From: Campylobacterales bacterium
GTDB lineage: Bacteria; Campylobacterota; Campylobacteria; Campylobacterales; Nitratiruptoraceae
Assembly (NCBI GenBank): GCA_027065825.1
Contig: JAMONM010000065.1
Location: forward strand, 1-36,068
Length of the DNA stretch: 36,068 bases
Direction: 5' to 3'
Positions 6,099-32,669 of the stretch are shown piece after piece. The notes beneath the pieces are model-generated. The model saw nothing but the letters and a program-made list of their open reading frames with translations. It ran no database searches and was not told the origin of the DNA. How positions within the stretch are numbered: position 1 is the stretch's first letter; each line of letters opens with the position of its first letter. A program made the position numbers and the translations under genes.

Positions 6099-7883
6099 TC
6101 ATTTGATATATCCCAACTCAAGCAGTTTGTCATAAATTTTCGAAACTATGGGGCCGGCGGCGCTGCCTCCGTGTCCGCCGTGCTCTACGAGCACAGTAAC
6201 CACGTATTCGGGCTCTTTGTAGGGGCCGAAAGTGGTCAGCCAAGCGTGCGACCTGCTGTAGTATTTGAGCTCCTCCTCCTTCATTCTCTTTTTCTCGTCC
6301 TGGGGAATTCCGATAACCTGAGCCGTACCGGTTTTTCCGGCAATTTTAACGGGTGTAGTTATATAGTTCGTGGCCGTACCCTTGGGATGGTTGCACACTT
6401 CGTACATCGCTCTTCTGATATAGGGAAGTTTTCTCTTTTCTATGGGAGTTAGAACATCTTTGAATTTCGGTTCGAAATATTTATCCTTGAATTTCAGAGC
6501 AAAATGCGGCAAAGGCAGCTTTCCTGAGGCCAGCAAAGCGGTATGTACCGCCATCTGCATCGGCGTCACCAGATCGTACCCCTGACCTATCGAGGCTACG
6601 ACAGTTTCACCTATAAACCATTTTCTGCCGTATTTTTTCTCTTTCCACTCTTTGTCGGGTACGATTCCGATAAACTCGTTTGGAAGATCGACGCCGGTTT
6701 TCTTGCCAAATCCCAAATCTTTCAAAGTAGCCGCGATCTGATCTATGCCCACCTTGAGACTACCCTCGTAAAAGTAGACGTCGCAACTCTCTCTGATGGC
6801 TTTTTTCATTTCGGTTTCGCCGTGTCCGGTAATTTTCCAACATCTAAATTTCCTCTTGCCCAGTTTTATGGCGCCGCCGCAGTAAAAGGGAGTATATTCC
6901 CCGATTTTCCTACTGTTTATAAAAGAGAGCGCAACCCCCATTTTGATTGTAGATCCAGGCGGATATAGACCGTTTACCAGTTTGTTGGTAAAAGGGTGAT
7001 CGAAATTTGTTATCAGCTCTTGCCATCTCTTTTTAGATATTCCGGAAACGAACATGTTTAGATCATATTCCGGAAAACTCCCGGCGGCAAGAATCTCTCC
7101 GTTTAGTTTCATCACTATAGCCACGCCCGCTTTGCCTTCGAACAGCTCCTCGATATAACGTTGCAGTCTCACATCGATCGTCAACACAAGATCCCTATTC
7201 TCCACCGGCTCTCTCTTTTCTACGGTCTCTATCTCCTCGTTAAATGCGGTAACTTTGATCAATCTATATCCCAGTTCCCCCTGCAGATATGAGTTATAGT
7301 ACCTCTCCACTCCGGTTTTACCGATAATTCCCACCAGTTTGGCCACTTTGTCGGCTTTGGCCTCTTTTTTGTTCGTCCTGGAGACGTACCCTATAATGTG
7401 CGAAGCCAGATCCCCGTTGGGATAGAATCTTTTGAACGAAGGCTCGACGAAGATATCCTCTCTTTGGTTCAAACTACTGTAGTGGGGCAATACCGTTTCG
7501 TACTCCAAAAAGGGAACGACCTCGATAAAATCGTGATTATACGGAGAGTCGCGCCTAATATACCTTTTTAACATCTTCTCTTTATTTAGATCGGGAAAGA
7601 GCCGAACCAGATATTCCAAAGTGGCGTTTAGTTCTTTCTGCCTTTTTCTGTATCGCAGATGAGGTTTGACTTTTATTTTAAAACCTATATTGTTAACGGC
7701 CAAAGGGTTCTGGTTACGATCTAAAATCTCCCCTCGCGTCGGAATTATCCACTCTTTTTTTATCATATTCTGTTCGGCCAGCAGTTCGTAATAGCTATTC
7801 GATTTTATACTCAGATAATAGACTCTCGCCAGTAGCAATATCCATACCGCTATAAATAGATAGAAAAGAGTTTTCAATCTCAT
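6099..7883 (-). CDS. mrdA: Penicillin-binding protein 2 (elongation transpeptidase)
   Basis: Periplasmic DD-transpeptidase of lateral wall synthesis, anchored by one N-terminal membrane segment (about 5-23). The pedestal/dimerisation region spans about 50-220 and includes IPTRGEILDRN near 47. The transpeptidase domain has the active-site tetrad STIK (Ser near 310, in PPGSTIK), an SCD triad in RESCDVYFY as is usual in PBP2, and KTGTAQ near 516. Length 594, normal. The start ATG overlaps the stop of the upstream membrane-protein gene by four bases (ATGA), so the two are coupled. It is last in the long minus-strand envelope run. FtsI-type identity is less likely because of the SCDVYFY motif and the lack of a PASTA or long N-terminal domain. 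Confidence 0.95.
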   Translation of the reverse strand: MRLKTLFYLFIAVWILLLARVYYLSIKSNSYYELLAEQNMIKKEWIIPTRGEILDRNQNPLAVNNIGFKIKVKPHLRYRKRQKELNATLEYLVRLFPDLNKEKMLKRYIRRDSPYNHDFIEVVPFLEYETVLPHYSSLNQREDIFVEPSFKRFYPNGDLASHIIGYVSRTNKKEAKADKVAKLVGIIGKTGVERYYNSYLQGELGYRLIKVTAFNEEIETVEKREPVENRDLVLTIDVRLQRYIEELFEGKAGVAIVMKLNGEILAAGSFPEYDLNMFVSGISKKRWQELITNFDHPFTNKLVNGLYPPGSTIKMGVALSFINSRKIGEYTPFYCGGAIKLGKRKFRCWKITGHGETEMKKAIRESCDVYFYEGSLKVGIDQIAATLKDLGFGKKTGVDLPNEFIGIVPDKEWKEKKYGRKWFIGETVVASIGQGYDLVTPMQMAVHTALLASGKLPLPHFALKFKDKYFEPKFKDVLTPIEKRKLPYIRRAMYEVCNHPKGTATNYITTPVKIAGKTGTAQVIGIPQDEKKRMKEEELKYYSRSHAWLTTFGPYKEPEYVVTVLVEHGGHGGSAAGPIVSKIYDKLLELGYIK

Positions 7884-8341
7884 AAAAACACCGAAACCGT
7901 CAAAAGTTCTACGAACAGATAAAAAAGATACCAGCCATCGGGGAGGAATACCGGAGTGTTGAATATCTCGTTAAGCATATACAGCATAACCGGATAAAAC
8001 AGAAAAAAACCGCAAACGGCGCCTATTTTCAAAAGCCATTTCACGAAAAATAGATGTTTGATCCTATCATAAAGAACTCCCAGCAGAACGTAAGTGATAA
8101 AGGTGCTAAAAAAGGGCAGCGAATGGTTGGCTTCGAAAAAGAGAGTAAAAAGCAGCACATAAAAGCGGGAGGTTCCGTCTCTGTATGAGAGGTAAATCCA
8201 AAAACCTACCCCGGCTAAAGGAGGCAAAAACGGGTATATGGAGCTTATCGCCTCGTACGGCCAGGCGAACAGCAAAAACAAAAAGGGAGCTAAACCTTTT
8301 TTATCATAGAGACTTCGTTGCATACCGGAAAATGTTTGCAT
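7880..8341 (-). CDS. Small multi-pass membrane protein upstream of PBP2 (MreD-like position)
   Basis: About 153 residues with roughly five hydrophobic segments and no recognisable catalytic motif. Size, topology and tight coupling (ATGA overlap) to the PBP2 gene recall MreD, a partner in the elongation complex, but I see no sequence signature that proves it. The start is uncertain. ATG at 8341 has GGGCGGA upstream; TTG at 8359 and ATG at 8323 are alternatives; a TTG near 8285, just after the end of the preceding gene, would remove the overlap altogether. A homologue of unknown function sits in the same place in C. jejuni as I recall it. Confidence 0.75.
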   Translation of the reverse strand: MQTFSGMQRSLYDKKGLAPFLFLLFAWPYEAISSIYPFLPPLAGVGFWIYLSYRDGTSRFYVLLFTLFFEANHSLPFFSTFITYVLLGVLYDRIKHLFFVKWLLKIGAVCGFFLFYPVMLYMLNEIFNTPVFLPDGWYLFYLFVELLTVSVFL

Positions 8342-8754
8342 TTTATACAGTCCGCCCAAATCTTATGCTCTGGAATCTTCTCTTTTTCTATCTCTACAAA
8401 TCCCAGTTTTTCAAAAAATTCTCTATTGTAAGTAAGCGACAACACCTCCTGGACGCCTAGATTCTTGCCTTCGGCTATCGCTTTTTGAACCAAAATTTTG
8501 CCTATACCGCTCCCTCTATACGGCTCGGCGACTATTAAACTCCTAATTTCGGCAAGCTTAGGCGTATGTATGTGCAAAGCTACAAACCCAATAACCTCCT
8601 CCTCCAACACGGCCAGCAGATACGATCTGATATTGGTGGCGACCTCGTCGTCGCTTCGAGGCAGGATTACTCCCTCTTCCACCGCTTTATGCACGAGCCG
8701 CTGCATTTTCGGGATATGTTTCAACGTAGGTTTTATAAATTTGACTCCTTCCAA
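8290..8754 (-). CDS. GNAT-family N-acetyltransferase, ArgA-like
   Basis: Single GNAT domain of 154 residues. The acetyl-CoA pyrophosphate loop is YRGSGIG near residues 79-85 (R/Q-x-x-G-x-G/A type). The N-terminal part (VEEGVILPRSDDEVATNIRS) and the C-terminal tail resemble the short stand-alone N-acetylglutamate synthases, the first step of arginine synthesis, rather than ribosomal-protein acetyltransferases. The tail carries three cysteines in DCIKCKHFPVC, possibly a metal site. It begins one base after the engB stop and its end overlaps the next gene. The substrate is inference; other GNAT roles are possible. Confidence 0.8.
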   Translation of the reverse strand: MEGVKFIKPTLKHIPKMQRLVHKAVEEGVILPRSDDEVATNIRSYLLAVLEEEVIGFVALHIHTPKLAEIRSLIVAEPYRGSGIGKILVQKAIAEGKNLGVQEVLSLTYNREFFEKLGFVEIEKEKIPEHKIWADCIKCKHFPVCNEVSMIKKV

Positions 8755-8755
8755 A

Positions 8756-9346
8756 TCAAAACACCTCTTTGACGATTTCCTCTCTTAGCTCCTCTATTCC
8801 CCTACGGGTGGTACTGGATACCAAAAACGGATCGTCAAATTTTTTTTTCAAAGAGGCCAGCTCTTTTTGCTTTAGTTTGTCGGCTTTCGTAAATACGATC
8901 AAAATCTTTTGGTCTCCTCTCAAAATCGATTCGATAAACTCCAAAGCCCTCAGATCTATCTCCATTTGAGGATGTCTCGCGTCTCTTAACATCAAAAAGA
9001 GTCTAACGGCCTCTCTTTTTCTCAAAAAGTCGCTAAGGCTCTTTTGCCATTCGTTTTTTAGGCTTTTTGAAGCCTTGGCGTATCCATATCCGGGCAGATC
9101 CACAAATCTCATCGGGAAAACTTTTTCATCTTTTTGCAGCTCAACATCGAAAAAGTTTATCAGTCTGGTCTTACCGGGAGTGGAAGAGCTCTTGGCAAGA
9201 TTTTTCCTATTGAGCAAAGCGTTGATCAAAGAGCTTTTTCCTACGTTGCTACGCCCTATAAAAGCCACCTCGGAAAGAGTCGGCGGGGGAGCCTCTTTTA
9301 TGCTCGGAGCCGATGTGAGAAACAGGGCCTTTTTTACCTTTGTCAA
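8756..9346 (-). CDS. engB: Ribosome biogenesis GTP-binding protein EngB (YsxC/YihA)
   Basis: Small essential GTPase of the TrmE-Era-EngA-YihA family, involved in large-subunit assembly. G1 is GRSNVGKSS at residues 31-39. The Thr of STPGKT near 56 provides G2, G3 is DLPGYG at 83-88, G4 is TKAD near 150, and SSTTRRG near 178 is G5-like. 196 residues, normal. The start is TTG at 9346, preceded by GGAGGGAAA, and overlaps the lptA stop by four bases (TTGA). Confidence 0.96.
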   Translation of the reverse strand: MTKVKKALFLTSAPSIKEAPPPTLSEVAFIGRSNVGKSSLINALLNRKNLAKSSSTPGKTRLINFFDVELQKDEKVFPMRFVDLPGYGYAKASKSLKNEWQKSLSDFLRKREAVRLFLMLRDARHPQMEIDLRALEFIESILRGDQKILIVFTKADKLKQKELASLKKKFDDPFLVSSTTRRGIEELREEIVKEVF

Positions 9347-9825
9347 TTTCCCTCCCCGGTAGCGTTCTCTTCAACGTTGAAGATAAATTTGACCGGTTTT
9401 TTGCCGCCCTCTACCCTCGCCTGACCGTTTTGTCTGTTGACTATCACTTTTTCGCCGTAAATCTTTCTGTTTTCCGGCTTTTGCAGAATAAATACGTCTT
9501 TTTCCAGAAGATATTTGGCCTCTTTCGGAAAATATACGATCTTTTGCGCTTTACCCTCGTAGCTTTTGTTGGAATCCATCACTATTTTGAACGTCACATC
9601 TTTTAAAGCCTCGTATTTTATCGGTTTTCTCTCTTTGTCGAAATATACGATCAGTTTTTGCGAGTCTATGCGATCTTTGCCTTTTTTAACGTGGACGTCG
9701 CCGGTAAAAATCGAAACCCGTCTGGTCTCGTCCGCCTCAAAGCTGTTGGAAGTAATCTCTACGTTTTCGGCATACAGTATCGGTATGGCCAAAAGTAACG
9801 CCAAAACGGAAACGAACCCTCTCAT
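9343..9825 (-). CDS. lptA: LPS-transport periplasmic protein LptA
   Basis: Periplasmic OstA/LptA-type beta-jellyroll protein that forms the bridge carrying lipopolysaccharide from LptC to the outer membrane. A clear signal peptide (about residues 1-19, ending ILYA) precedes NVEITSNSFEADETRRVSIF, the usual start of the OstA-like domain (about 20-135). 160 residues. The C-terminus is polar and low in complexity. The ATG start overlaps the lptC stop (ATGA), and engB follows with another four-base overlap. Confidence 0.9.
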   Translation of the reverse strand: MRGFVSVLALLLAIPILYAENVEITSNSFEADETRRVSIFTGDVHVKKGKDRIDSQKLIVYFDKERKPIKYEALKDVTFKIVMDSNKSYEGKAQKIVYFPKEAKYLLEKDVFILQKPENRKIYGEKVIVNRQNGQARVEGGKKPVKFIFNVEENATGEGN

Positions 9826-11421: not shown

Positions 11422-12201
11422 TTATTCGTTGATAACCACAAAGGCGCCGGGAAACTCGCCTCTGGCTATAAAGTCTCTGGCCTCCTCTTCGCTTCTGAAA
11501 CCTACCAACCAAACCCGATACAAGGGCTTGGAGTCCACTGTAAAAGTTTTTATAACGGCTCTGTATCTACCTTCGACCGTCGCATAGCGCTCTTTGGTGA
11601 TTTTAGCGCCCTCCATACGTCTAAAAGCCCCTATTTGAACCGCGAAATCCTTTAGCTCAACGCCTCTTACGGAACTCTCCAAAGAGGCTATCGTTTTGTC
11701 AAAACCCAGCACCTCTATCTCCACCGGAGCCGTTCCCTGCGCAATCATTCCTATTTTTCTCGCAGCGGCGTAAGAGAGATCTATAATTCTATTTTTGACA
11801 AAAGGGCCTCTGTCGTTTATTCTAACTACAACCTCCTTGCCGTTTCTGAGATTTTTCACTCTCACCATAGTGTTCATTGGCAGGGTTTTATGGGCGGCCG
11901 TCATGGCGTACATATCGTAATACTCTCCGTTACTAGTCTTTCGACCGTGAAAATCGGGACCGTACCAGCTGGCTATACCTCTGAATCTGGATCCTACGTT
12001 TACGATTGTGGGATAATATCTTTTGCCGGCTACCGTATAGGGTCGCATAGTGGCCCTGTGAACCGCGTGGGAGCTTTTTGGAGTACCGTAGCTCTCGCCC
12101 GCTACGGAAGCCGATTTTTCAAATTTAGGCGCGCATCCGGTTACCGCAAAAAGCAAAAACAGCAGAAAATAAAAACCTAAACTCCTAATTGATAATAACA
12201 A
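11422..12201 (-). CDS. rlpA: RlpA-family septal ring lytic transglycosylase, lipoprotein with SPOR domain
   Basis: Outer-membrane lipoprotein that cleaves denuded glycan strands at the septum. The lipobox AVTGC places the lipid-bearing cysteine at residue 23. The double-psi beta-barrel domain spans about 72-165 ([19 protein letters not shown], then [10 protein letters not shown] and RINDRGPF, which hold the catalytic Asp/His region). A C-terminal SPOR domain (about 183-257) targets septal peptidoglycan. 259 residues. The start is TTG at 12201, supported by GGGAG six bases upstream, and overlaps the mltD end by 17 bases. Paired with mltD as in other Campylobacterota. Confidence 0.92.
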
Positions 12202-19236: not shown

Positions 19237-19986
19237 ATGGCAACCGTATCCAATCCCGTTTTTTACGCCGTTATTATCGGAACAGAGATTTTAAACGGTC
19301 GCAGGGAGGATCGGCACTTCGATTTTTTAAAAAAAGAGTTGTCAAAAAGGGGTTGGAGATTCAAAGCCTCCTTTTTGATAGAGGATGACCCCTCGCTGAT
19401 CGAGTCTATTTACACAACGATAGCCGAAGACGAAAACGGAGTAATGTTCAGTTTCGGAGGTATAGGTGCCACTCCCGACGACTACACCAGAGCGGTTGCC
19501 GCAAAGGTATTCGGCGACGGAAAGCTCTACGAACATCCAAAGGCGAAAGAGCTGATTTTAAAACGTTTCGGCGATTCGGCATATCCTCACCGTATAAACA
19601 TGGCCAAACTGCCAAAAGGGGCCGAACTTTTACACAACCCGATAAATTTGGTTCCCGGTTTCTATCTGCAAAAACGCTACTTTTTCGTTCCGGGTTTTCC
19701 GGAAATGGCACACCCCATGATCATCGAAGCTCTCAATCTTTTCTATCCCAAAGCAAAGGAAAAACCCAGATACACCATCTGCGTAGAGGCTAGCGAAAAC
19801 GATCTGATGGACCTGATGCAACAGATTCCGAAAGAGGTGGAGTTCTCCTCCCTTCCGGCTGTGAGAGAGGGGCGATATTTTGACGTAATCTCCATAGCGG
19901 GAGAGGAGGCGAAAAAATGGATAGAGTTCTTCATCGGCGAAATAGAAAAGAGGGGCTATAAATATAAATGGGGAGAAGCGTGCTGA
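19237..19986 (+). CDS. CinA N-terminal/MoaB-type molybdopterin-binding domain protein
   Basis: 249 residues with an N-terminal MoCF_biosynth fold (about 9-165): IGTEILNGRREDRH near 15-27 and FSFGGIGATPDDYT near 70-83 are the signature motifs of CinA/MoaB/MogA proteins. There is no C-terminal CinA amidase domain; instead about 80 residues resemble the middle domain of CinA. CinA-like proteins hydrolyse ADP-ribose or process damaged NAD, and MoaB-like ones bind molybdopterin; which applies here is not clear. ATG directly follows the adk stop with no strong ribosome site, suggesting coupling to adk. Confidence 0.85.
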   Translation: MATVSNPVFYAVIIGTEILNGRREDRHFDFLKKELSKRGWRFKASFLIEDDPSLIESIYTTIAEDENGVMFSFGGIGATPDDYTRAVAAKVFGDGKLYEHPKAKELILKRFGDSAYPHRINMAKLPKGAELLHNPINLVPGFYLQKRYFFVPGFPEMAHPMIIEALNLFYPKAKEKPRYTICVEASENDLMDLMQQIPKEVEFSSLPAVREGRYFDVISIAGEEAKKWIEFFIGEIEKRGYKYKWGEAC

Positions 19987-20255
19987 TAGTAAACGCTCTG
20001 ATAGAGCTAAATCTTCCATACGTCGACTCTTTAAAAGGGAGACGCAAAATCGTCACATCCATAAAGGATAGACTAAAAAACAGAAATATATCGATAATGG
20101 ATATCAGCGGCGAATATCCGAAAGAGGCCTTGCTAGCTCTATGTTTTTTGTCCTCCAACGAACCGCAAGCACAAAAAAAGCTTCAAAGCATAGAAGCAAT
20201 CATGCAACGGCACTATCCAGAAATCTCATACTCTCTCAGCTACGAACTGCTATAG
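19968..20255 (+). CDS. DUF503-family protein
   Basis: 95 residues, small alpha/beta protein. The pattern IELNLPYVDSLKGRRKIVTSIKDRL matches (shown over two pieces: IELNLPYVDSLKG and RRKIVTSIKDRL) the DUF503 (YlxP-like) family, some members of which lie in ribosome-biogenesis operons with rbfA. It overlaps the preceding gene by 19 bases. Start is ATG 19968 or, with GGGGAG close upstream, GTG 19980. Last gene of the aspS run. Function unknown. Confidence 0.8.
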   Translation: MGRSVLIVNALIELNLPYVDSLKGRRKIVTSIKDRLKNRNISIMDISGEYPKEALLALCFLSSNEPQAQKKLQSIEAIMQRHYPEISYSLSYELL

Positions 20256-20322
20256 CGGTCTATTCGGATCGGCCCGAAAGTATTTATAAAAAAAATTTAT
20301 ATTTTTCCTCAGCGCCATATAT

Positions 20323-20351
20323 TTGACAAATATTCGTTTTTTTTATATTCT
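20323..20351 (+). promoter_or_regulatory. Sigma-70-type promoter for the AhpD-like/cytochrome/thioredoxin genes
   Basis: A consensus -35 TTGACA (20323-20328), a 17-base spacer and a -10 TATTCT (20346-20351). The AhpD-like start lies 22 bases past the -10. This is the best -35/-10 pair in the window, and it starts a new transcription unit after the DUF503 gene. Confidence 0.65.
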
Positions 20352-20372
20352 AACGGTAAACAAGGAGTGAAT

Positions 20373-20909
20373 ATGGCACATATTAAGCTACCTGAATATG
20401 AACAGATGAGTCCCTCTATACAAAAAAAAGCGGAACCGATTTTAAAAAAGAGCGGAAAACTCGGAGATATTTTCAGGCTATTGGCCATAGATGAAAATAT
20501 CTACAACTCCACAGACGTTATGGTTCAAAACTACCTTTTAAAAGAGACAAGGCTTCCTTATTATATAAAGGAGGCTATCGCGCTGCTGATCTCAAAAGAG
20601 AACAGCTGTAAAATGTGTGTGGAAGTTCACAAAAGTATAGCCAAAATGCTGGGTCTGACCCAAGAGGAGATAGAAAAGATACTCCAAGGAATTGAGACCC
20701 TAGAAGGCGACGAAAAGGTAAAAGAGCTACTGGCTTTTTGTATCAGGGCTTCGAAAAAAGATAACTACAAAATAACGAAAGAAGAGATCAACAGAGTAAA
20801 AAGCTTTGGATGGAGCGACGAGGAACTGCTCGAAGCAGTCGCGATTACGGCCTATTTCAACTACATCAATACCCTATCTAACGTATTCGGATTGGGAGAT
20901 GACCAGTGA
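20373..20909 (+). CDS. Carboxymuconolactone decarboxylase/AhpD-like protein
   Basis: 178 residues, cytoplasmic (no signal peptide), all-helical CMD/AhpD fold. It carries the AhpD catalytic pattern E-x11-C-x2-C-x3-H exactly: E67, C79, C82, H86 (around KENSCKMCVEVHK). AhpD uses this as a thiol-based reductant in peroxide defence with AhpC; other family members are decarboxylases without the CxxC. The ATG at 20373 has AAGGAG five bases upstream; a GTG at 20367 is inside that site. Its stop overlaps the cytochrome start (GTGA). No ahpC or lipoamide gene is adjacent. Confidence 0.85.
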   Translation: MAHIKLPEYEQMSPSIQKKAEPILKKSGKLGDIFRLLAIDENIYNSTDVMVQNYLLKETRLPYYIKEAIALLISKENSCKMCVEVHKSIAKMLGLTQEEIEKILQGIETLEGDEKVKELLAFCIRASKKDNYKITKEEINRVKSFGWSDEELLEAVAITAYFNYINTLSNVFGLGDDQ

Positions 20910-21235
20910 AAAAGATCGCCCTTTTGTTTATTACTATCGTATCGATAGGATATAGCTACAGCGCAAAGGGTATGGTAACGTATAAAAAACTCTGCTATTC
21001 CTGCCACGGACCCGCGTTTAAAGGAGCGGCCATGATGGAGAGCCACGAGTGGAGATCTCTCTTTGCGAACAAGGCAACCGGGCTAAAAGCGCTACACGAG
21101 AACAGCCAAAAAGCGATCGAGAGGCTAAACAGTTCATACTTTAACAGAAGGGCCCAAGCTCTCGAAAATTTTTTGATAAACAACGCCAGAGACAAAGGAA
21201 TCGTTCGCGGCTGTGACGGATTAAATTGCGGCTAA
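20906..21235 (+). CDS. Small periplasmic mono-haem c-type cytochrome
   Basis: 109 residues with a signal peptide (about 1-20) and a single haem-attachment site CYSCH (C30, C33, H34). The rest is short and polar with a predicted helix at about 65-95. No Met follows residue 44, so the usual distal Met 40-60 residues after the haem site is missing; Met43/44 or His47/His63 are the only candidate axial ligands in sight. Two extra cysteines (C103, C108) lie at the very C-terminus. The start is GTG at 20906, overlapping the previous stop and preceded by GGGAG. Redox partner unknown. Confidence 0.85.
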   Translation: MKKIALLFITIVSIGYSYSAKGMVTYKKLCYSCHGPAFKGAAMMESHEWRSLFANKATGLKALHENSQKAIERLNSSYFNRRAQALENFLINNARDKGIVRGCDGLNCG

Positions 21236-21245
21236 GGAGAAACCG

Positions 21246-21656
21246 ATGAAAAAGATTTTACTGCTCTCTCTTCCGCTTCTGCTATCGGCCCGAATTGAGT
21301 GGCTAAACTCCTATACAGAGGCGATAAAAAAGGCTCAAACCGCCAATAGACCTATTTTGGTATTTATCGAAAGCGAATATTGCTCCTGGTGTAAAAAGAT
21401 GAAAAGGGAGGTATTTACAAAAACAGAAATACAAAGGATTATCAACGGCAATTTCATTCCCCTAAAACTCGACAAAGACCGCTCTTCCTATCCAAAGGAG
21501 CTCAGCGTAAAACTGGTCCCGACAACCATCTTTCTGACCCCGGAGGGAAAAAAGTTCACAAGAAGCGTTTTGGGATATTGGGAACCGAAATCTTACGGAT
21601 CGTTTTTAAGCGACGCGATTAGAAGATATAAAAAATTCTCCTCTAAAGTTCAATAA
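21246..21656 (+). CDS. Periplasmic thioredoxin-fold protein
   Basis: 136 residues with a signal peptide (about 1-15) and a thioredoxin fold. The redox-active site is CSWC (C46, C49) after ESEY, and the cis-proline loop is LVPTTIF (P92). The WCKKMKREVF pattern resembles SoxW/DUF255-like or thioredoxin_7 proteins rather than TlpA or DsbA. ATG with AAGGAG upstream, ten bases after the cytochrome stop. It may reduce or oxidise a periplasmic partner, perhaps the C-terminal cysteines of the neighbouring cytochrome; that is inference. Confidence 0.87.
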   Translation: MKKILLLSLPLLLSARIEWLNSYTEAIKKAQTANRPILVFIESEYCSWCKKMKREVFTKTEIQRIINGNFIPLKLDKDRSSYPKELSVKLVPTTIFLTPEGKKFTRSVLGYWEPKSYGSFLSDAIRRYKKFSSKVQ

Positions 21657-21703: not shown

Positions 21704-22222
21704 ATGAATCTATCCAAAATAGGTCACGGCGAAAATCCCGACAAGGTTCACGCCCTAATAGAGATACCGTACGGTTCCAACGTCAAATATGAGATAGACA
21801 AAGATAGCGGCGCCATATTTGTAGACAGAGTCCTCTATAGCGCTATGTTCTATCCCGCCAATTACGGTTTCGTCCCCTCCACTCTGGCCGCAGACGGCGA
21901 TCCAGCCGACATTTTGGTACTAAACGAATACCCTCTACAGGCTGGCAGCGTAATTAAATGCAGGCTTATCGGAGTCCTGATTATGGAGGACGAAAGCGGA
22001 ATGGACGAAAAACTCCTTGCGGTTCCGATAGAGAAAGTCGATCCCAAATATGCCGAGATAAAAGATATTGACGATCTGCCAAAAGCCACGCTGGAAAAGA
22101 TCAAAAACTTTTTCGAAACCTACAAGATGCTCGAACCCAACAAATGGGTAAAGGTCAAAGAGTACAAAAACAGGGCCGAAGCCGAAAAAATCCTTCAAGA
22201 AGCTATACAAAACTACAAATAA
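21704..22222 (+). CDS. ppa: Inorganic pyrophosphatase, family I
   Basis: Soluble Mg-dependent enzyme that hydrolyses pyrophosphate to drive biosynthesis. The family I signature DGDPADILV holds three metal-binding aspartates (D64, D66, D69), with IEIPYGSNVKYEID and YPANYGFVPSTL upstream. 172 residues, normal. The ATG at 21704 is chosen because AGGAGAG lies just upstream; an in-frame ATG at 21665 lies within the promoter. In relatives it is also near aspS and adk. Confidence 0.96.
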   Translation: MNLSKIGHGENPDKVHALIEIPYGSNVKYEIDKDSGAIFVDRVLYSAMFYPANYGFVPSTLAADGDPADILVLNEYPLQAGSVIKCRLIGVLIMEDESGMDEKLLAVPIEKVDPKYAEIKDIDDLPKATLEKIKNFFETYKMLEPNKWVKVKEYKNRAEAEKILQEAIQNYK

Positions 22223-31866: not shown

Positions 31867-32669
31867 TGTCCCACTTGCCTAACAGACACCACGATCACGC
31901 TAAAGAGCGTAACGGCCAATCCGAAAACTCCCAGCAACGCCATATCGACCATAATTTGGGATAGCGAAATTTTTAAAGAGACCACTCCCAAAAGATTTTG
32001 CATAATCTTGGCGTTAAGCAGATAATAAAAGAGTCCATACAGCGCAGCCAACGACAATAGAGTGTCCACTATGGCCAACCTGATCAAAACCCCGCTCCTC
32101 ATCCACAAAGGGGCTCCGAAAAGCTCCATAATGTACATTCTCTCCCTGTGTTCGAGATACCATACCTGCATCTGCTTGAAAATAAGCAAAGTGCTGATTA
32201 TAGCCGTAATCGCCAAAAAGATCTTTGATATCTGTTTTAGAACTATCAGCATATTATATATTTTGTTGTGAGAGTTTTCAAAGGTTTCGACTCTTTTAAC
32301 GCCCTCTACTCTTTTTAATCTATCCTCTATCCTCTTTAGTTCGTCCCCGGTAGGGAAATGTTCCAGTTTTATTCTGTAAAATCTGGGCATGAATTTTTTC
32401 AAAGATTCAAAATCTACAGAGATTCCCTCCCGTTCAAGACGCGAAACGAGAGACTTGGAATCGATCTCTTCTAGCGATTCAACGTCTATATATGGTGTTA
32501 AATCCTCCTTGTCAATCTCTCTGTCGGCCGAAATCAAAACTATATAGTCCTCGCGCAATCCGTTTTCATAATCTTTGATAACCCTATCCAGCACGATATA
32601 AAACTCTATGGCGAAAAAAATCGAAAAGAGAGGTAAAATCAAAGATAGATGGTTTTTAAGAGACTTCAT
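31863..32669 (-). CDS. ftsX: Cell-division ABC transporter permease FtsX
   Basis: Inner-membrane protein of about 268 residues with four membrane segments: one near the N-terminus (about 7-28) and three after residue 150 (about 157-180, 198-222, 242-266). The periplasmic domain between TM1 and TM2 holds EVDKEDLTPY-like acidic stretches (about 35-145) that would contact the EnvC-like protein. I prefer ATG 32669; ATG 32681 has AGAGG directly against it with no spacing. It overlaps the end of ftsE. FtsX proteins transmit ATP-driven shape change rather than move a substrate. Confidence 0.9.
   Translation of the reverse strand: MKSLKNHLSLILPLFSIFFAIEFYIVLDRVIKDYENGLREDYIVLISADREIDKEDLTPYIDVESLEEIDSKSLVSRLEREGISVDFESLKKFMPRFYRIKLEHFPTGDELKRIEDRLKRVEGVKRVETFENSHNKIYNMLIVLKQISKIFLAITAIISTLLIFKQMQVWYLEHRERMYIMELFGAPLWMRSGVLIRLAIVDTLLSLAALYGLFYYLLNAKIMQNLLGVVSLKISLSQIMVDMALLGVFGLAVTLFSVIVVSVRQVGQ

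Follow-up and report, generated by a model that had tools for sequence, protein, structure and literature searches.

Recurrent but non-obligatory linkage of an AhpD-type protein, a small cysteine-tailed cytochrome c and an exported thioredoxin-fold protein in Campylobacterales

Three small redox genes, encoding an AhpD-type protein, a monohaem cytochrome c and a thioredoxin-fold (Trx) protein, follow one another on a 36,068-nucleotide stretch of a Campylobacterales genome (the whole stretch is referred to as the window, and its genome as G000), which raises the question of whether they form one module and, if so, what that module would do. The three are consecutive plus-strand open reading frames (ORFs), with the GTG start of the cytochrome gene overlapping the TGA stop of the AhpD gene as GTGA and the Trx ORF beginning ten bases past the cytochrome stop (Table 1); the tight packing described in an earlier reading of the DNA without database searches (the sequence-only reading) is thus borne out. 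The same reading took AhpD to be cytoplasmic and the other two proteins to be exported, in agreement with hydropathy; the export and signal calls for the cytochrome and Trx are hydropathy calls only, with a best 12-residue mean of N-terminal hydrophobicity of 2.7 and 2.5, respectively. It also noted no ahpC, sox or lipoamide gene nearby, and none was seen by eye among the window ORFs of at least 110 aa.

Table 1. Features of the three-gene locus and its flanks, in window coordinates.
Feature	Position	Strand	Characteristics
DUF503 protein, upstream neighbour, outside the cassette	19968..20255	+	Same neighbour in several relatives
Perfect palindrome ATATTTG-A-CAAATAT (7-1-7) over the -35 box	20319..20333	.	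Occurs once in the window; candidate operator
Sigma-70-like promoter TTGACA-17-TATTCT	20323..20351	+	10/12 consensus bases; near chance as a pattern
AhpD-type (CMD family) protein, 178 aa	20373..20909	+	CxxCxxxH, ENSCKMCVEVH; no hydrophobic N-terminus
Small exported monohaem cytochrome c, 109 aa	20906..21235	+	CYSCH, H64, CDGLNCG tail, type A
Exported thioredoxin-fold (Trx) protein, 136 aa	21246..21656	+	CSWC, VPT loop, hydrophobic N-terminus
Inorganic pyrophosphatase ppa, downstream neighbour, outside the cassette	21704..22222	+	Same neighbour in several relatives

The promoter-like pair at 20323 sits 21 bases before the AhpD ATG, and a promoter before AhpD is plausible by position. It had been called the best -35/-10 pair in the window, a claim that fails: an identical 10/12 pair (TTGACA-17-TATTCT) lies at 11795, and the minus strand has an 11/12 site at 32281. 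Promoter strength was dropped as evidence because 10 or more of the 12 consensus bases are matched at 16 sites in the window, near the chance level given by 20 shuffles, which averaged 10.5 such sites. The palindrome over the -35 box, which the sequence-only reading did not mention, is possibly the operator of some regulator.

Conservation of the linkage was assessed in a sample of 298 genomes of the order, with 22 genomes in the window's own family (f1). AhpD, the cytochrome and Trx are clustered in six of the 22 f1 genomes (G000, G001, G003, G006, G007, and G009), and two genomes of a second family, f4, hold all three in one cluster with DsbD between them (G059 and G180). Throughout f4 the cytochrome adjoins AhpD in all eight AhpD-bearing genomes among the 298 sampled. 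DsbD lies directly 3′ of a cytochrome with a type A tail (defined below) in nine of the 13 f4 genomes having that cytochrome, the contig of G200 ending before the position where DsbD could show; a small Trx follows DsbD in five of the nine DsbD-bearing clusters, there being none on the fetched stretch in G024, G084, and G096, and the contig of G150 ending too early to show one. A large thioredoxin-domain protein, DUF255/YyaL-like by eye, is divergent to the cassette in L027 (which carries the G209 locus), L037, L103, L122, and L166 (f4).

Elsewhere in the order the genes occur in other pairings: AhpD and the cytochrome are divergent neighbours in G142, and divergent with a MerR gene between them in G171; in G004, G037, and G248 a small Trx gene comes next after AhpD in the same orientation (gaps of 70, 40, and 5 bases) and there is no cytochrome; and Trx adjoins a type A cytochrome in G280, where AhpD is not next to the cytochrome. 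Within f1, AhpD is kept between DUF503 and ppa without the cytochrome and Trx in G002, G008, G010, and G015, and G005 has the cytochrome with no AhpD match. Of 55 AhpD loci, 18 lie within 1.5 kb of a gene of the cytochrome family (haem-bearing in 16 cases and haem-less in two) and 37 do not. On an AhpD tree of 56 rows (55 distinct loci, two rows being from G024), the linkage label needs 13 changes, compared with 20.4 in shuffles; the AhpD-cytochrome linkage is clustered on the tree, yet repeatedly gained or lost, and only five of 53 forks are starred as supported, so gains and losses cannot be firmly reconstructed from it. The three-gene linkage is conserved but not obligatory. The sequence-only reading had staked its module on conserved linkage in relatives, and the linkage does recur there; the cassette is real, and the earlier interpretation is partly supported, its shared redox module standing as a recurring association and not as an obligate unit.

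The cytochrome had been called odd, a fair description since it matches cytochrome profiles below cut-off only (Cytochrome_CBB3, 17.6 bits against 27; Cytochrom_C, 17.8 against 21.3). With the class I cytochromes c of these profiles it has in common a single CxxCH near the N-terminus and a weak profile similarity; unlike them, its family has one or more conserved C-terminal cysteines and H64, includes haem-less relatives, and falls below cut-off. Profile searches of the ORFs of 263 loci gave 98 distinct family members, and a profile cut before the tail recovered the same 98, a check that is not fully independent because the loci were mostly fetched via the tail-bearing profile; the counts describe loci selected by profile hits and are no census of the family. 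All 98 members have a tail cysteine, either among their six final residues or as part of CDxxxCG within the last forty, and 93 have CxxCH, the five haem-less members being those of G025, G044, G233, G210, and G161. When all 98 were aligned, W49 and the tail cysteine C103 were kept throughout, and H64 was a histidine in 93 of 93 haem-bearing and none of the five haem-less members. CxxCH and H64 thus occur in the same 93 members and C103 in every one, so H64 tracks the haem, unlike the tail cysteine; in this alignment H64 behaves as a sixth haem ligand would. An AlphaFold2 model of the cytochrome from three sequences, with pLDDT averaging 61 and below 50 over most of the tail, cannot place the tail relative to the haem.

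The haem-less members lie in L053, L054, L248, L093, and L101 and have neither CxxCH nor an equivalent of H64, with the C-terminal cysteine kept; those of G210 and G161 adjoin a MerR gene divergent to AhpD. A tandem pair of family cytochromes occurs in L251 (G224) at 2028-2830.

The tails fall into three types, which were drawn after the neighbours had been seen and differ in how often a small Trx gene adjoins (within 200 bases on the same strand, found with a profile that itself included five Trx from cytochrome-linked loci, four of type C and that of L175): type A (CDxxxCG; 31 members including the window's) has an adjoining Trx in seven of 31, type B (mostly DSGNVPAC-like; 47 haem-bearing and three haem-less members) in none of 50, and type C (DSxxIP[ST]C-like) in 15 of 15, and the two haem-less members outside these types have none. 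Types A and C each form one supported clade (98 and 99) on a few-column tree that carries a long-branch warning. Across the type A alignment C103, C108, and H64 are invariant, and there is no invariant Met. Since type B members keep the tail cysteine with no adjoining Trx, a linked Trx is not a requirement for the tail. The type C cytochromes (L042, L046, L179-L181, L221, L223, L228, L229, L231, L235, L236, L239, L245, and L249) are overlapped or closely joined by the small Trx gene, with a gap of up to 125 bases, and their Trx partners are mostly CFYC. A large protein with CxxCH motifs is divergent to the type C pair in L042, L179, and L181; in L042 this protein shows a below-cut-off resemblance to the multihaem ExtM.

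The window Trx exceeds the cut-offs of Thioredox_DsbH and Thioredoxin_7 (59.3 and 62.5 bits against 27), with Thioredoxin_2 also among its Pfam matches; no AhpC-TSA/Redoxin family, the type of domain found in the apocytochrome reductases CcmG/ResA, is among its Pfam matches to E ≤ 1. A profile of the Trx alignment matches solved DsbD C-terminal domains, among others, and a DsbD-type protein (an open frame of 595 aa) is encoded elsewhere in G000. DsbD moves electrons from one side of the membrane to the other, between cytoplasm and periplasm, and its presence inside the f4 cluster is therefore the best argument for one pathway. The likeness to DsbD-driven reducing pathways lies both in the Trx itself and in this gene company, and the excerpted text of PMC4460558 is likewise pertinent to DsbD electron transfer across the membrane; unlike the DsbD-driven pathways described in such excerpts, the proposed client here would be a small cytochrome with a cysteine tail.

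The window AhpD scores above cut-off for CMD (PF02627, 38.6 bits against 23) and for the AhpD core domain (TIGR00778, 44.8 against 27.8) and below it for TIGR01926 (64.2 against 81.8). Full-length orthologues across the order are 55-80% identical, and orthologues at E < 1e-30 occur in 75 of the 298 genomes, three of which (G014, G162, and G224) have fragments only. CxxC plus His is the catalytic motif of AhpD/CMD proteins, and C79, C82, and H86 are invariant in 21 of 21 aligned orthologues. The nearest solved relatives, 2prr and 2pfx, are uncharacterised peroxidase-related proteins that have the AhpD core domain and CxxCxxxH in common with it, and an AlphaFold2 model from two sequences has a mean pLDDT of 69, with about 80-89 across most of residues 61-150. 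AhpD of the Mycobacterium type has AhpC as partner and lipoamide as donor; the window AhpD, by contrast, has no adjoining ahpC by the same inspection of window ORFs. A lipoyl synthase over cut-off is absent from G000, where the best lipA match reaches 29.5 bits against 310, which makes a lipoamide-fed AhpD unlikely there, lipoate uptake being still possible; G006, which carries the cassette, does encode a lipoyl synthase over cut-off, and G007 encodes one that falls just short, so in these two genomes AhpD may have a lipoamide donor.

A relative of this AhpD has been reported from dehalogenation. In the available portions of two papers, SMUL_1530 of Sulfurospirillum multivorans is an AhpD family protein encoded beside pceAB (PMC4585668, PMC7755780), and the former portion gives the CxxC and His of the AhpD family as catalytic, SMUL_1530 as detected in PCE-grown cells only, and its identity to uncharacterised AhpDs of free-living Epsilonproteobacteria as ∼60% (PMC4585668). 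In L110 (G040), at 7079-9697, an AhpD 58% identical to the window's directly precedes two genes, one for a reductive dehalogenase (over cut-off) and one for an anchor-like protein of 74 aa, which is the arrangement that these portions report for SMUL_1530 and pceAB; unlike in the window cassette, neither a cytochrome nor Trx lies beside it. By the reported identity and L110, the window AhpD and SMUL_1530 very probably belong to the same orthologous group, and the cassette would then be a second genomic context for the AhpD group that these excerpts place beside the Sulfurospirillum PCE reductive dehalogenase.

Nine genomes (G001, G003, G006, G007, G009, G043, G059, G096, and G180) have a TetR gene immediately 5′ of AhpD, and the TetR of L029 exceeds the cut-offs of PF13972 and TetR_N. 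When the nine TetRs were combined in a profile, it ranked the same nine best across the 298 genomes, at 340-358 bits, with the next best at 210 bits; a broken TetR piece outside this 210-bit ranking adjoins AhpD in G200. Upstream of the TetR gene, all nine genomes have the palindrome TAGAGTAATTACTCTA with zero to two mismatches (about 300 bases upstream in G096), the two-mismatch matches being no better than a reversed-pattern control (up to five per genome). Matches with zero or one mismatch sit by the cassette TetR or by the G200 piece, except for one in G043 and one in G171, the latter preceding a YceI gene and a related TetR. The three-gene cluster is headed by TetR and the upstream palindrome in seven of eight genomes, the exception being the window's genome, in which neither the cassette TetR, by profile search, nor a match to TAGAGTAATTACTCTA was found. 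We propose that TetR may repress the cassette in relatives through this palindrome, and the pair offers a candidate handle for finding the trigger.

Related TetRs (35-43% identical) occur in 13 of 14 further fetched loci, with a palindrome within three mismatches in 13 of 13; L198-L205 and L207-L211, from several families of the order, hold related TetRs and palindromes close to TAGAGTAATTACTCTA. Their neighbours include, by Pfam, one example each of YceI, LigB-type dioxygenase, and DoxX genes and, by eye, further YceI and LigB genes along with CDGSH and mono-oxygenase genes; weakly DinB-like genes are also found among them. By analogy only, this gene company points to electrophile, quinone, or lipid-peroxide stress more than to the peroxide or sulfur stress offered as examples in the sequence-only reading; for the former, the quinone- and electrophile-stress operons of MhqR are the comparison case. 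In Burkholderia, according to the excerpted text of PMC9113575, YceI (BcnA) and cytochrome b561 act against lipid peroxyl radicals, a haem protein and an exported factor thus working together against membrane peroxidation; YceI genes adjoin related TetRs with a like palindrome here, and the comparison is an analogy only, the window cassette having, unlike the Burkholderia system, neither YceI nor cytochrome b561. Expression data for Nitratiruptor SB155-2 under Cd/Cu, in the available portion of PMC10092412, name TetR, Trx, and cytochrome genes, under locus tags with no established correspondence to the cassette. Regulators of another kind are seen in L096, where a MerR-type regulator is divergent to AhpD at ∼6395-6495 with the long palindrome AAATGTTAAGTA-G-TACTTAACATTT between them, and MerR-AhpD pairs resembling this one occur in several other loci.

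From the observed linkage we infer an electron path, and the reading that we favour, held with slightly less belief than doubt, is of a thiol-redox stress cassette that spans two compartments. In the cytoplasm, AhpD would reduce peroxides or electrophiles with the thiols of its CxxC/His site, its own reductant in the window's genome probably being the thioredoxin system and not lipoamide. On the other side of the membrane, the exported Trx would take electrons from a DsbD-type protein and pass them to the two cysteines in the cytochrome's C-terminal CDGxNCG, a step suggested by the conservation of the tail and by the repeated linkage of cytochrome and Trx genes. The haem, whose ligands are probably two histidines (H34 and H64), would connect the thiol pool with periplasmic electron transfer.

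The same facts might describe a looser neighbourhood of separate stress genes joined by nothing more than a shared promoter and the co-regulation that it brings, AhpD acting alone and the cytochrome and Trx having other periplasmic tasks. We consider this unlikely, yet a serious contender. It would account for the 37 AhpD loci without a cytochrome neighbour and for the separation of a cytoplasmic AhpD from two exported partners, which counts against the cassette, and the excerpted text of PMC7755780 gives SMUL_1530 as a single-gene transcript of low level with a log2 fold change of 2.29 with PCE. Against it, each of the three gene pairs turns up repeatedly in separate families, under varied regulators and in varied arrangements, and the linkage of Trx to the type C cytochrome is without exception in the 15 loci.

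Two further explanations concern the periplasmic pair. Trx could be a dedicated apocytochrome reductase, similar to CcmG/CcsX, that keeps the CxxCH cysteines from pairing with those of the tail; the periplasmic Trx gene does adjoin that of its cytochrome, and the available portion of PMC4460558 gives such reducing steps as known in Epsilonproteobacteria. This we regard as clearly improbable, since the window Trx matches Thioredoxin_7/DsbH/Thioredoxin_2 and not AhpC-TSA/Redoxin, unlike CcmG/ResA, and since none of the 47 type B haem cytochromes has an adjoining Trx, so that an extra cysteine by itself does not demand one. Alternatively, the tail cysteine might ligate the haem iron as a thiolate, making the cytochrome an enzyme or sensor reactive towards sulfur or gas and kept in the reduced state by Trx. 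TsdA and SoxA have such a cysteine thiolate ligand, and the invariant C103, C108, and H64 of type A, with no invariant Met, would suit one; we nevertheless find the proposal very hard to credit, given that the histidine and not the tail cysteine follows the presence of haem among the 98 members and that the tail is poorly modelled by AlphaFold2.

Beyond the favoured two-compartment cassette, a bolder reading, which we think rather improbable though worth stating, is that these small 'cytochromes' have the C-terminal thiol, not the haem, as their essential element, are fed by Trx in two subfamilies, and are inducible together with AhpD and TetR. They would form a thiol-to-haem relay from the DsbD pathway to respiratory or detoxifying haem proteins, and some members may have shed the haem and the second histidine jointly while retaining the thiol function. 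The known elements here are periplasmic thiol reduction and AhpD. Among the matches listed in open-licence PMC literature, no paper treats the three genes together or the cytochrome family, in keeping with the sequence-only reading's view of the three-gene combination as undescribed; that literature yielded no expression or biochemical data for the cassette, and the excerpted text of PMC10045233 holds nothing that bears on it. If Trx does reduce the cytochrome tail, the cassette would wire the periplasmic thiol pool directly to haem electron transfer, and the family offers a test case for why a cytochrome retains its tail cysteine after loss of the haem and the second histidine. All three cassette proteins are small and look soluble.
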